Positions 18,239 through 24,880 of a stretch of 52,027 bases of DNA are shown piece by piece; within the stretch, counting starts at the first letter, position 1, and each line of letters opens with the position of its first letter. The notes beneath the pieces are model-generated. The model worked only from the letters and a program-made list of their open reading frames with translations, did no database searches and was not told the origin of the DNA. A program made the translations under genes and the position numbers. Origin of the DNA: Verrucomicrobiota bacterium (GTDB lineage: Bacteria; Verrucomicrobiota; Verrucomicrobiia; Chthoniobacterales; JAFAMB01); NCBI GenBank assembly GCA_019247695.1, contig JAFBAP010000088.1, positions 1 to 52,027 on the forward strand, written 5' to 3'.

Positions 18239-18943
18239 ATGGGGCACGCCCACCCTACTGAATTCTCGCGTGATGCAAACCGGAGAGTGGTTTGGACGCT
18301 GGCGCTTTCCGCAATCGCCGCCGGCCTGATCGTGGCTGCCTTCTGCGGCGATGCCGCTTGCATCCAGTGGATGCAGGCGCATCAAAACCGGACGGTGTCA
18401 CGCCTGGCGGCAAAGCTCAGTGAGTTCGGGGATTGGCCGGAACTCATGGTCTATGGTTCGGTGGTCCTGGCCATCGCCTGGATTCGCCGCGCCGGCCGGT
18501 TGGTGCATTTGGTTCTCTGTATGATGCTGGCGTCAACGCTTGCAGGTGCGGCCGTGAACTCCATCCGCCTCCTGAGCGGCCGGACCCGGCCGGGTGAGCG
18601 GGAAATTCGCAGCGGCTGGTACGGGCTGTGGTACGGCAAGACCTTTCTCCTGCGCAAGAATAAGTTTCACAGCTTCCCATCGGGGCATACCGCCAGCGCC
18701 TTCGCTTTTTTCGGCACGGCCGCATGGGCGCATCGCCGTTGGGGGTGGCTCCTCCTGAGCCCGGCCGGTGCAATCGCCTGGTCACGGTTGTATCTCAACG
18801 CCCATCATCTGTCCGACGTCGTCGTGGCCCTCATCATCGGGCTGCTCCTGTCTTTTATCGTCTGGCGCCGGGCCGGCCCACGGGTACGCCGCTGGGTTGA
18901 TGCCCGCTGGCGGCTGCCGGAATCACCCACCGGCCATAAATAG
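18239..18943 (+). CDS. PAP2-family membrane phosphatase
   Basis: 234 residues with about five to six hydrophobic segments. The three acid-phosphatase motifs are present: LLSGRTRPG (motif 1, Arg where Lys is usual), FPSGHTAS (motif 2) and SRLYLNAHHLSDVV (motif 3 with catalytic His). Substrates in the family are undecaprenyl diphosphate, phosphatidate or lipid A phosphates. It is divergent from the GT39 gene with a gap of 72 bases, suggesting shared control. The ATG at 18239 is the first sensible start. Confidence 0.87.
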   Translation: MGHAHPTEFSRDANRRVVWTLALSAIAAGLIVAAFCGDAACIQWMQAHQNRTVSRLAAKLSEFGDWPELMVYGSVVLAIAWIRRAGRLVHLVLCMMLASTLAGAAVNSIRLLSGRTRPGEREIRSGWYGLWYGKTFLLRKNKFHSFPSGHTASAFAFFGTAAWAHRRWGWLLLSPAGAIAWSRLYLNAHHLSDVVVALIIGLLLSFIVWRRAGPRVRRWVDARWRLPESPTGHK

Positions 18944-19301: not shown

Positions 19302-22300
19302 ATGAAGTCGAAGTTTAGGACACACGTTTTTCGCGTCTGGATGCTGGTTGCGTTGTTGCTCTCCTTGGGAGCCTGGGTAGCGGCTCGCGCCGGCGAAGTT
19401 CTTTACGCCGATGATTTCACCAACCTAGACCCGACCTGGGGCACCCCGGGTGACATCATCCGCGTCCAGGACGGCAAGCTGGTTCTTAAGCCTGCGCCTA
19501 ACACGTCCCAAAACATTCTCAACCAATCGCAGGTCTTCGAGGATGCGGAAATAACGCTGGACGTCACCATCACCGACGGAGCGACCGAGGTGCCGGGTGG
19601 ACTGATCTTCTGGGCGAAGGACTACAGTAATTTTTACTGCTTGTGCGTCAACGCGAATGGCAGGTTCAAGATCAGCCGGTACGTGACGGACCGGTGGCTT
19701 AATCCGATCAACTGGACCGAGACCAACGCCCTCAACAAGGGCCTGGGGCAAGTCAACCGGCTGCGGTTGGTGACCACAAGCCATCAGGCGATCATCTACA
19801 TCAACGACACTTCGATCCTGACCTTCAACGGCCAGCCGCCTCGGGGCGGGGGGTGCATAGGAATTTCGGGTACCTCGGCCGAAGGAAGCCCGACGGTCTG
19901 GCAATTTGCCAACCTGCGCGTGATCGCCGCTTCGCCCGGCGGACCAGTGGCTGCGCCTGCCGGTCCGGCGGTACCGACGCCGGCGGCGCTGGCGGCGGCG
20001 TCGCCTTCACAAGCTCCACCGGTGCCGACGGCCTCGCCGGCCGCGTCGGTTGCGCCGTCACCGGCTGCAACCGTGGCGGCAGCCGCAGCTACGCCGGCCG
20101 CACCCGCAGTGCCGTCGCCCTCCCCTGCGGCGGTCAACGCGGCAACGCCGACTGAAGCGGCGCCCGGACCGGCTCCCGCCGCGACCCCGGTTGTTGCCGC
20201 GAGCCCGGCCGTTGCCGCGACGCCTGGACCTGCCGGGGGACGCCGAGTTGCGCTCAGGCTCCATGGGTCGAACACGATCGGCGCTGAACTCGCCCCGGCC
20301 ATCGCCGAGGAATTCCTGAAGCACGAGGGCGCCATCTCGGTGCAGCGCAAGCCGGGGCTCAGGGAGGATGAAACCAATCTGGACGCCGTCCTGCCGGATG
20401 AATCGGCGGAATCGGTGGTCATTGAAATCCAGGGCCATGGCTCCAAAGCGGCGTTTGACGATCTGGCGGCTGACGCCTGCGACATCGGCATGTCGTCACG
20501 ACGGATCAAGGCCGAGGAAGCGCAGCGGTGCGCGCGTGCAGGGCTCGGCGACCTGGTTTCGGCCGGGGGCGAACACCTGCTGGGTTTGGACGCCATCGTG
20601 ATCCTGGTTCACAAGTCCAACCCGATCGGCGCGTTGAATAAAGAGCAGCTGGCCGACATTTTCAGCGGTAAAATCACCGATTGGTCACAGGTCGGGGGCC
20701 GGCCGGGCGGCATCAATCTATACGCCATGGGCGATCGGTCCGGCACCTTCGACACGTTCAAGGCGCTCGTCCTGGGCTCCCGGAACCTTTCCCCGCGAGC
20801 CTTGCGTTACGAGAGTAATGCAAAGCTTTCCGATGACGTGGCAACCGATAACAACGGGATCGGTTTTGCCGGCATGGGGTTTGTACGCGGAGCAAGAGCA
20901 GTCGCCCTGGGTGAACCGGGCGCCGCGCCGGTAATGGCCACCCCGTTTTCGATCGTCAGCCAGGAGTACCCGCTTTCGCGCCAACTTTTGCTCTACAGCG
21001 CGGTTGAACCGAAAAACCCGTGGGTGCGCAAGTTCCTGGACTTCGCCCGGCCAAAGTTGGAAGTCTTTTCCTGGTGGACATCGGGGGGTGAAGCGGCAGC
21101 CCTCGACGCGCTGGTGCGTACCTACCAGACTGCCTACCCCGGGGTGGCGGTGATCAACGCCACGGTGGCCGGCGGGGGCGGATCGGCGGCGAGGCCGGTG
21201 CTGCAAACCCGCCTGGCGGTTAACAATCCGCCGGATACGTGGCAGACCCATCCCGGGTGGGAGTTGCTGGGCCAATACGTTACGCCGGGCTACTGCGACT
21301 CGCTCTCCGAGTTGTTTCGCAGCGAAGGCTGGGACAAGGCGTTCCCCAAAGCGCTGGTGGATCTGGTCACGAAGAACGGCCAACCCTACGCTGTGCCCGT
21401 CGGCATCCACCGCGGCAATGTGCTCTGGTACAACAAGAAGCTGCTCGCCCAGCAGGGTATTACAATCGGACCGAAGCTGAGCTTTGATGAGTTTTTTGCC
21501 GATTGCGAAAAATTAAAGGCTGCCGGCGTGCCGGCGCTGGGAGTGGGGGACGCGGGCATCTGGGCTTCAGCGCAACTGTTTGAGAACACGCTGCTGGGGG
21601 TGGTGGGACCGCAGGGTTGGTCGGACCTGTTCAGCGGGCGCCGGCGTTGGGATGATCCGGCGGTCAAACAGGCCGTCGAATACTTCGGACGGATGCAGGA
21701 TTACTTCAATAACGACCATGCGGCTCTGACCTGGGATCAGGCCATCAAGCGCCTAATGGACGGCAAAGTGGGTTTCAGCTGCATGGGCGACTGGGCCGAC
21801 GGGGAGTTCATAAAAGCGCGACTCCAGGAAAACGTCGATTTCGGCTGGGTGAGTTTCCCGGGGACAGACGGTGATTTCATGCTGGTGTCGGACAGCTTCA
21901 CCCTGGCGAAAGGGGCGCCGCACAAAGAGTCGGCGATCGCGTGGCTCAAGAGCATCGGCAGCAAAGACGCCCAACGAACCTTCAGCGCTCAGAAGGGTTC
22001 GATTCCGGCGCGTACTGACGTGGAACGGGCGGGATTTGACCTTTATCATCAGTGGTCGATGACCGATTTCGCCGAGGACAAACTGCTGCCCAGTTGCGTC
22101 CACGGGTCGGCCGCACCGGCCAGCTTCCAACAGGCGTTTAATGATGCGGTGGCCGCCTACATGGCCGACCGCAACACCGATAATTTCACCGGGGCACTGG
22201 TGCAGGCAGCCCAGAAGATGAGCCCGGAGGCGGTGGAAAGGGTTGATCTCGGCGGACGAAAGATCGAATTGATGGACAGCCCGCCGTTGCCGCCCGATGC

Positions 22301-22667
22301 GCCGCCAGACTACGCGCGCCAAGTCCAGGGTGCCGGAAAATTGAACGTAACATTTCGTTTCAGCGCCGGCAGCCGGCGTCTGGATGAAAAGTCGAGGCGA
22401 GACCTTGAGCGGATGGTCGAGATCCTGCGGAATCCGCAATACCAGCGGCGCCAACTCCTGCTGTTCGGTTTCTCCGACAACAAGGGTAGCGCCAGGTGGA
22501 ATGTGGCGCTTTCCAAGGACCGGGCGAAGGAGGTCGCGGAACTGTTCAGAAAGCACGGCATCAGCCCGGCATTGGTTACGGGGTACGGCATGGCTCTGCC
22601 CGTTGCTCCCAACGACAGCGACCAGGGCCGCCAGGAAAACCGGCGGGTTGAGGCGTGGTTGCGATAG
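19302..22667 (+). CDS. Giant periplasmic fusion: LamG-like, PstS-like, sugar SBP and OmpA domains
   Basis: 1121 residues. Signal peptide (1-31, ending AARAGE). A concanavalin/LamG-like beta domain (about 33-206) with a GGLIFWAKDYSNFYCL strand. Ala/Pro/Ser linker (about 208-315). A PstS-like phosphate-binding-protein domain (about 316-583) with GSNTIG, DIGMSSRRI, LNKEQLADIFSGKITDW and the anion-site loop GDRSGTFDTF. A family 1 extracellular solute-binding domain resembling glucose/mannose binders (about 586-985) with VFSWWTSGGEAAALDALV and PVGIHRGNVLWYNKKLL. An OmpA C-terminal peptidoglycan-binding domain (about 1012-1121) with LLLFGFSDNKG and DQGRQENRRVEAWLR. No ABC permease or ATPase is nearby. 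I infer a wall-anchored double binding protein for storage, scavenging or sensing; the ligands are unknown. Confidence 0.85.
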   Translation: MKSKFRTHVFRVWMLVALLLSLGAWVAARAGEVLYADDFTNLDPTWGTPGDIIRVQDGKLVLKPAPNTSQNILNQSQVFEDAEITLDVTITDGATEVPGGLIFWAKDYSNFYCLCVNANGRFKISRYVTDRWLNPINWTETNALNKGLGQVNRLRLVTTSHQAIIYINDTSILTFNGQPPRGGGCIGISGTSAEGSPTVWQFANLRVIAASPGGPVAAPAGPAVPTPAALAAASPSQAPPVPTASPAASVAPSPAATVAAAAATPAAPAVPSPSPAAVNAATPTEAAPGPAPAATPVVAASPAVAATPGPAGGRRVALRLHGSNTIGAELAPAIAEEFLKHEGAISVQRKPGLREDETNLDAVLPDESAESVVIEIQGHGSKAAFDDLAADACDIGMSSRRIKAEEAQRCARAGLGDLVSAGGEHLLGLDAIVILVHKSNPIGALNKEQLADIFSGKITDWSQVGGRPGGINLYAMGDRSGTFDTFKALVLGSRNLSPRALRYESNAKLSDDVATDNNGIGFAGMGFVRGARAVALGEPGAAPVMATPFSIVSQEYPLSRQLLLYSAVEPKNPWVRKFLDFARPKLEVFSWWTSGGEAAALDALVRTYQTAYPGVAVINATVAGGGGSAARPVLQTRLAVNNPPDTWQTHPGWELLGQYVTPGYCDSLSELFRSEGWDKAFPKALVDLVTKNGQPYAVPVGIHRGNVLWYNKKLLAQQGITIGPKLSFDEFFADCEKLKAAGVPALGVGDAGIWASAQLFENTLLGVVGPQGWSDLFSGRRRWDDPAVKQAVEYFGRMQDYFNNDHAALTWDQAIKRLMDGKVGFSCMGDWADGEFIKARLQENVDFGWVSFPGTDGDFMLVSDSFTLAKGAPHKESAIAWLKSIGSKDAQRTFSAQKGSIPARTDVERAGFDLYHQWSMTDFAEDKLLPSCVHGSAAPASFQQAFNDAVAAYMADRNTDNFTGALVQAAQKMSPEAVERVDLGGRKIELMDSPPLPPDAPPDYARQVQGAGKLNVTFRFSAGSRRLDEKSRRDLERMVEILRNPQYQRRQLLLFGFSDNKGSARWNVALSKDRAKEVAELFRKHGISPALVTGYGMALPVAPNDSDQGRQENRRVEAWLR

Positions 22668-23694: not shown

Positions 23695-24841
23695 CTAAAC
23701 CTCGTCATCCCCGTCTCCGGTACCCTTTTTGTACGTGAGGCCGCGCAGTTTGCCTTCAATAAACGCGTCGAGGTCACCATCCATCACGCCCTGCACGTTA
23801 CTCGTTTCTACCCCGGTTCGATGGTCTTTAACCATCTGGTAAGGCTGAAACACATAGGAGCGGATCTGGCTGCCCCAGGCAATGTCGCCCTTCTCACCAT
23901 ACTGCCGGTCGAGTTCGGCCCGTTTTTTGTCCTGCTCAACCTGGTAAAGCTTGGCCTTGAGCATGTTCAAAGCCATCTGGCGATTCCGTCCCTGGCTGCG
24001 CTCCGCCTGGCATGCGACGACAATACCGGTCGGAACGTGGGTGATGCGCACGGCGGTTTCCACCTTGTTCACGTTCTGCCCGCCTTTGCCGCCGCTGCGG
24101 AACGTATCGAAGAGCAGGTCGCTCTCCTTGATCTCGATGTCGACGTCATCCTTAAGTTCAGGGACCGCATCGACGCTTGCGAATGAGGTGTGGCGCCGCT
24201 TGTTGGCGTCAAATGGCGAGATGCGAACCAGGCGATGGACGCCGCGCTCAGTCTGGAGGTAGCCGTAGGCGAATTCACCGGCCACAAGCAGGGTCGCCGA
24301 CTTGATCCCGGCCCCTTCTCCCTGCTGGATGTCGACGATCTGGCTCGAATACCCGTTCCTTTCAATCCAGCGCTGGTACATGCGAAGGAGCATATCCGCC
24401 CAGTCGCACGATTCTGTGCCGCCTGCGCCAGCGTGGATCGTAAGAAACGCATTGTTCCGGTCAAACTCCCCGGACAGGAGCATTTTTAACTCAAAATCAT
24501 CCAGCCCGCGCGTCACCGCCGCGTATTCGTTTTGCAAATCCTGAAAGGCGGCGAGTTGCGCCGCGTGGTTGGCTTCTTCCTGCGTCAGGTCCCGCAACAC
24601 TTCGAGGTCGTCCACTTTCCGGATCAACTCGCCGAGCGGTTGCACCCTGGAGCGCACTGCGGTGGTTTCATCGATGATCTTTTGCGCCTGTTCCTTACGG
24701 TCCCAGAAATCAGGCGCGGCCATCTGCTCTTCCAGGTCCTGAAGTCGCCGTTGTAGGGCGGCGTAGTCAAAGATACCTCCGAAGCTCGCCGATGCGGGAC
24801 TTGAGTTGATCGATGCGAATGGCTTGGAAATCGATTTCCAT
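23695..24841 (-). CDS. prfB: Peptide chain release factor 2, with programmed +1 frameshift
   Basis: RF2 ends translation at UGA and UAA. The gene starts at the ATG at 24841 (protein [19 protein letters not shown]) and reaches an in-frame TGA at codon 25. The canonical shift site CTT TGA C moves reading +1 to continue [15 protein letters not shown]. The total product is about 381 residues. The stop-recognition SPF motif ([11 protein letters not shown]) and catalytic GGQ ([12 protein letters not shown]) are present. The charged C-terminal tail ([10 protein letters not shown]) makes it slightly longer than the E. coli protein. Annotation that starts at 24723 would lose about 39 N-terminal residues. 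Confidence 0.96.
24766..24781 (-). promoter_or_regulatory. prfB: prfB programmed frameshift site
   Basis: On the minus strand the bases read CGGAGG TAT CTT TGA C: a Shine-Dalgarno-like GGAGG three bases before the slippery CTT codon, then TGA followed by C. This is the conserved autoregulatory site, in which low RF2 favours slippage and full-length RF2 synthesis. Confidence 0.95.
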
Positions 24842-24880
24842 AAGGTGGATTAAACTGAGTGAGATCAGCGTCCCTGTAAA

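Follow-up and report, generated by a model that had tools for sequence, protein, structure and literature searches.

The open reading frame at 19302-22667 (+) of the window, which is the whole 52,027-nt stretch of Verrucomicrobiota DNA analysed here, has 1121 codons and no internal stop, and it encodes a protein in which a complete, mature glucose-binding protein (GBP) is apparently nested in the end of the PstS-like domain of a PstS-OmpA protein. We consider that there is an even chance that this fusion is a periplasmic, peptidoglycan-anchored sugar receptor, descended from a PstS-OmpA sensor module, that works for a membrane signalling partner; the sugar binding, the partner and the signalling are all predicted. 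The loss of the key phosphate-gripping residue makes the fusion probably a sugar sensor rather than a trap for phosphate plus sugar. The PstS-OmpA and GBP classes and signalling by binding proteins are already known, while a search of open-access papers turned up no description of the nested architecture, of the matched loss of the phosphate arginine, or of a pairing with TIR or STAND membrane proteins. If true, the ligand of an envelope sensor was changed by inserting a whole nutrient-binding protein and disabling the old pocket, and the abundant, unexplained TIR and STAND membrane proteins of this Verrucomicrobiota group would gain a concrete, testable input.

The features of the fusion gene and its upstream neighbour are as follows:

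18239-18943 (+): PAP2-superfamily phosphatase gene, upstream of the fusion, in a synteny common to the same-genus locus G001:C221

19302-22667 (+): whole fusion gene, one open reading frame of 1121 aa, with homologues of the fusion (orthologous or paralogous) in other assemblies

19302-19391 (+): predicted signal peptide, residues 1 to about 30, with cleavage likely after A-A-R-A

19392-19931 (+): N-terminal jelly-roll domain (3keto-disac_hyd/CBM66/LamG-like), residues about 31-210, an approximate fold assignment

19932-20235 (+): Pro/Ala-rich linker, residues about 211-311, fast evolving (dN/dS 0.28)

20244-21047 (+): PstS-like domain, residues about 315-582, with Met476 at the phosphate-site arginine position of RxxxSGT

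21051-22217 (+): inserted complete mature glucose-binding protein (solute-binding protein, SBP, family 1), residues about 584-972

22218-22280 (+): stretch (MSPEAVERVDLGG..) aligning with the last helix and C-terminal tail of insert-free PstS-OmpA proteins, residues about 973-993, a short alignment of moderate confidence

22359-22664 (+): OmpA peptidoglycan-binding domain, residues 1020-1121, with D1059 and R1074

The five-part architecture and the domain order proposed in the first-pass annotation were borne out by a Pfam search, which places PBP_like_2 at residues 373-581 (E 3e-27), SBP_bac_1 at residues 597-891 (E 4e-26) and OmpA at residues 1020-1114 (E 3e-16), together with a sub-threshold match to the concanavalin-type 3keto-disac_hyd family at residues 38-206 (22.8 bits versus a cut-off of 26.8). 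The best NCBIfam matches, both under the curated cut-offs, are the TIGR02136 PstS subfamily (residues 370-582) and the GlcS glucose binder (residues 588-900). PBP_like_2 followed by a C-terminal OmpA domain is the order of the PstS-OmpA class. The signal peptide, as read from the sequence, carries no lipobox cysteine. An Asp and an Arg of OmpA domains are expected to hold diaminopimelate, and both (D1059 and R1074) are conserved in all four OmpA-bearing fusions, in agreement with the proposed wall anchor. The dN/dS values for two pairs of OmpA-type fusions are 0.05-0.12 across all folded domains, indicating purifying selection.

Residues 585-965 match TtGBP, the glucose-binding protein of Thermus, from end to end (2b3b, E 7e-102), and the glucose binder 5dvf matches the same domain with an E value of 4e-52. 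This end-to-end match rejects the possibility that residues 586-985 are an extension of the PstS fold and upholds the earlier assignment of a separate, sugar-type domain closest to glucose binders. Twelve glucose contacts are listed for the Pseudomonas glucose-binding protein (PMC7927077), and 10 of them are identical in the window GBP domain; K92 is replaced by H650, the same His as in TtGBP, and N301 by V862. Three of the five other fusions covering the GBP have the contact set of the window protein, bar one Gly-to-Ser substitution in one of them, and the paralogue pair G000:C18 and G001:C39 has lost the contacts W36 (to L) and K339 (to N) and also carries the Gly-to-Ser substitution. The domain is thus predicted to bind glucose or a related hexose. 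It shares full-length homology with TtGBP and with Pseudomonas GltB/GtsA (5dvf, 8hqq), but, unlike these proteins, it lies inside another binding protein, is wall-tethered and has no importer genes nearby. A stand-alone glucose-binding protein gene is present elsewhere in the window genome (contig C90), and its neighbours, read by sequence, are not permeases but a putative PfkB-type sugar kinase and a putative KDPG aldolase. At another locus (L111:35-4036), a stand-alone SBP family 1 GBP adjoins a two-domain ABC ATPase and a ribose-type BPD_transp_2 permease, an unusual importer combination in which BPD_transp_2 replaces the usual BPD_transp_1 pair.

Insert-free PstS-OmpA chains run ..VRKFVEFALGKEGQEIVNKLGFVGQ..APAQY.., and the window chain runs ..VRKFLDFARP, then through the mature GBP from KLEVFSWW to ALVQAAQK, and then MSPEAVERVDLGGRKI..APPDY... 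The PstS domain of the window protein is discontinuous, with about 390 GBP residues intervening after ..KFLDFARP, and this comparison of the junctions indicates that a signal-less, full-length GBP apparently takes up the position into which the last PstS helix would otherwise extend. For the short tail behind the insert, the alignment with the PstS end is plausible rather than certain. The front junction of two sister-genus copies has about 27 additional residues. A single origin of the fusion has moderate support on the PstS tree, where the fusion group is supported at 91/97; the GBP tree alone leaves the fusions unresolved at its base and does not reject one clade (p-AU 0.41). It is mainly the PstS tree that carries the single-origin claim.

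In the solved PstS relatives that were aligned, an arginine, R135 in E. coli, stands four residues before the SGT of the anion loop, and the window protein has Met476 at this canonical RxxxSGT position. The residues found here at seven fusion loci are M, M, L, P, P, G and G, with arginine at none of them. The arginine is kept in all 42 alignable PstS and PstS-OmpA proteins lacking the insert, and in eight further relatives. When 12 non-fusions were compared with 6 fusions, this arginine was the only column fully invariant in the former and absent from every one of the latter, and the PstS tree places its loss as a single event on the stem leading to the fusions (support 91/97). The PstS-like domain nevertheless evolves under purifying selection (dN/dS 0.07 to 0.21 versus 0.28 for the linker). 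The loss of the arginine in every fusion makes phosphate sensing doubtful and, together with the purifying selection, suggests that the PstS-like domain is in use, probably not for tight binding of phosphate. The anion loop named in the first-pass annotation (GDRSGTFDTF) is degenerate. In addition, contig C187 of the window genome carries pstS-pstC-pstA, with pst permease genes and a separate pstS of the GAGATFP type, and the fusion gene is not encoded with pstC, pstA or pstB. The possibility that the PstS-like domain supplies a PstS otherwise absent from the Pst importer was rejected because this canonical locus exists elsewhere in the genome. Phosphate as the ligand, as first proposed, is not supported, given the missing arginine and the separate pst locus.

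Outside the family, the nearest PstS-OmpA modules (at most 53% identity) belong to receptor Ser/Thr kinases, of which they form the outer half, in at least eight genomes. Pkinase, PBP_like_2 and OmpA in one chain were confirmed by Pfam in four of these proteins, and the others have a kinase-like N-terminus. The kinases (L180, L181, L182, L183, L186, L187, L188 and L044) occur in several families of the order, all keep the phosphate-site arginine, and are possible phosphate sensors. They are one-chain membrane kinases (Pkinase-TM-PstS-OmpA), whereas the window protein is a soluble periplasmic protein without a kinase, with a signal peptide and the jelly-roll domain in place of the N-terminal kinase and transmembrane (TM) helix. 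In G009, which belongs to the fusion-bearing sister genus, another relative carries a Cys-rich head and then a membrane helix ahead of PstS-OmpA, and a relative of the same type is found on contig C134 of the window genome. The kinase fusions and these Cys-rich membrane-helix relatives indicate that PstS-OmpA serves as a membrane-sensor module in the order. The C134 protein (L174:3835-6372, -) is an 846-residue open reading frame with a Cys-rich, zinc-ribbon-like head, a putative Ig domain, PstS and a weak OmpA match, and its phosphate-site arginine is kept. Proteins named by NCBI "Phosphate ABC transporter substrate-binding/OmpA family protein" (for example, Pseudoalteromonas WP_152441739 and Tolypothrix WP_167727947) share PBP_like_2 and the C-terminal OmpA with the window protein, and close members of this class have the same register, the LRLHGSNTIG-type start and the DIGMxSR motif; unlike the window protein, the class has neither the GBP insert nor the jelly-roll domain. 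WP_152441739 keeps the RxxxSGT arginine, and the position is not alignable in WP_167727947.

The neighbourhoods of the fusion genes differ between the genera. In the sister genus (g3), a TIR-TM-coiled-coil or nSTAND1-TM-coiled-coil gene lies directly upstream on the same strand at all four fusion loci, and the encoded proteins have a long coiled coil beyond the membrane helix. The upstream protein of G003:C64 has a cytoplasmic TIR domain (E 1e-20), and that of G003:C412 an nSTAND1 NTPase (E 2e-74), whose homologue at G005:C201 is 75% identical; the upstream copy at G005:C99 is cut by the contig start. The TIR-type genes end 19 and 15 bp before the fusion gene, and the nSTAND1 gene of G003 about 140 bp before it. 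These loci amount to two independent cases of pairing, each in two genomes. The C-terminal tails of the TIR-type and nSTAND1-type coiled-coil proteins are alike (0.25% of shuffles score as high), which suggests a single outer half with swapped inner halves. At the loci of the window genus (g1), no TIR, STAND or kinase gene adjoins the fusion. The open reading frames listed next to the window gene include no sugar permease or ATPase, as noted before; the neighbours are the PAP2 phosphatase and, downstream, a dienelactone hydrolase. The paralogue G000:C18 has no OmpA domain, and the genes that directly follow it form a sugar ABC importer operon (SBP, permease and MalK-type ATPase genes).

The TIR-TM and STAND-TM proteins of the family have the N-domain in common with the fusion (39% identity) or are encoded directly upstream of it; they hold a cytoplasmic effector, which is absent from the fusion protein. 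The one with the N-domain is a single-chain TIR-TM-jelly roll protein encoded at L106:4043-5452 (G003:C22, -), whose outer domain is 39% identical to that of the window protein. TIR proteins are abundant in the family, and many of them carry a membrane helix. The draft Verrucomicrobiota genomes G004, G008 and G010 encode 9 to 14 TIR-domain proteins each, many with a membrane helix and with varied C-terminal parts. Two nSTAND1-TM-coiled-coil proteins (L038:952-4620 and L049:1233-4778, -) have first 240 residues that match no Pfam family and look DUF4062/TIR-like only by eye. Membrane-associated conflict systems combine TM segments with PBP or OmpA domains (PMC7159879) and resemble the present loci in that STAND or TIR modules go together with PBP or peptidoglycan-binding domains that face outward. 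We saw no EACC1, caspase or vWA-MoxR genes here, and the fusion is not a member of those systems as described.

We propose the following mechanism for a sugar receptor. The ancestor would have been a sensor module like the PstS-OmpA outer halves of the membrane receptor kinases found in the order. One insertion would have placed a complete mature GBP into the end of its PstS domain, and the phosphate-gripping arginine would have been lost from the anion site on the same branch. In the present protein, the OmpA domain would tether the chain to the wall, the glucose-binding domain would close around its ligand, either glucose or a similar hexose, and in this closed state the protein may use its PstS-like and jelly-roll domains to dock on a signalling protein of the inner membrane. 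For the sister genus, we would expect this partner to be the product of the gene directly upstream, a TIR-TM-coiled-coil or nSTAND1-TM-coiled-coil protein. A precedent is the homologous GltB of P. aeruginosa, which binds the sensor kinase GtrS, and whose pocket mutations abolish or reduce signalling (PMC7927077). The separate pstS-pstC-pstA locus and stand-alone GBP gene support the sensor model, as the fusion is then neither the Pst nor the glucose carrier. Counting against it are the own-genus loci, which have no adjoining TIR, STAND or kinase gene and of which G000:C18 sits beside a sugar ABC importer, has no OmpA domain and is missing two glucose contacts, and the small number of independent pairings; the structure models are too poor to show docking. 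A more specific version, which we put forward tentatively as one of the less likely outcomes, is that wall-tethered sugar receptors switch inner-membrane TIR/STAND effectors in a bacterial Toll-like pathway, the ligand-binding part of which would be a separate periplasmic chain, with a GBP nested in a phosphate-sensor module whose own site was switched off.

The first-pass annotation had left open a trap or a sensor of phosphate and carbon; its sensing half is favoured, its phosphate half is not, and a trap is less likely because the closest PstS-OmpA modules belong to receptor kinases and the sister-genus fusions are paired with TIR/STAND proteins. A nutrient trap, that is, a wall-anchored glucose reservoir feeding ABC importers, in which the PstS-like and jelly-roll domains would serve as spacers or bind glycans as adhesins, is still the alternative to be taken most seriously, although we regard it as unlikely. 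It would account for the intact GBP pocket, judged from its residues, for the paralogue directly upstream of a sugar ABC operon, and for the stand-alone GBPs of the clade often being found with permeases. However, the window gene has no permease nearby, the genome has its own stand-alone GBP (C90), the operon of the paralogue already includes an SBP gene, a carrier that needs to reach the inner membrane would not usually be tethered to the wall, and the sister-genus partners are signalling proteins rather than transporters.

A role as an adhesin that attaches the surface or wall to polysaccharides of plants or microbes, in which the jelly-roll and GBP domains hold glycans without signalling, is improbable. 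The N-domain does resemble the CBM66, galectin and LamG folds: its model is nearly all-beta, the best solved matches of this low-confidence model are domains of these three types, and the Foldseek match to CBM66 has an E value of 9e-5 on the same low-confidence model. The two predicted structure models come from shallow alignments and have pLDDT values of 46 and 48, so the fold assignment of the N-domain is approximate (pLDDT only 46) and we make no claims on inter-domain arrangement or docking from them. The relatives come from environmental Verrucomicrobiota metagenome-assembled genomes (MAGs), presumably of soil, which would also suit an adhesin. Yet this reading leaves the shared origin with receptor-kinase ectodomains and the TIR/STAND pairings unexplained, and the GBP pocket residues suit a single hexose.

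Still harder to sustain is the dual sensor or trap of phosphate and carbon proposed earlier. The purifying selection on the PstS fold and the retention of the SGT loop, D394 and most of the first-loop Ser and Thr residues are in its favour, but the chelating arginine has given way to M, P, G or L in all fusions, and one paralogue lacks both the first-loop Ser and Thr (HGANAIG).

The fusion was found at 8 loci in 4 genomes, all within one GTDB family of Verrucomicrobiota: the window gene and G000:C18 in the window genome, two loci in the same-genus genome G001, and two each in G003 and G005, two of the four genomes of the sister genus. Two of the eight loci end at contig ends before the insert. 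The fusion matches L054 and L057 come from Verrucomicrobiota MAGs. Across 147 genomes from the order and 289 from the phylum, which do contain PstS and PstS-OmpA proteins without the GBP, no GBP-bearing fusion was found outside the family, and a contig scan, which detects close relatives only, likewise did not find the architecture outside the family. Over the genomes searched, the architecture is not widespread and a restriction to one small clade is supported, although it may also occur elsewhere. The window genome is a draft in 191 contigs, but a chimeric assembly or an artefactual gene fusion has a negligible probability and is ruled out by independent copies, because the same PstS-GBP junction recurs at six loci in four assemblies, in copies about 54-84% identical to each other with dN/dS of about 0.1-0.2.

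Elsewhere in the window, positions 24723-24845 (-) belong to prfB, the gene of release factor 2, whose programmed +1 frameshift site has the classic in-frame stop in AGGTATCTTTGAC.
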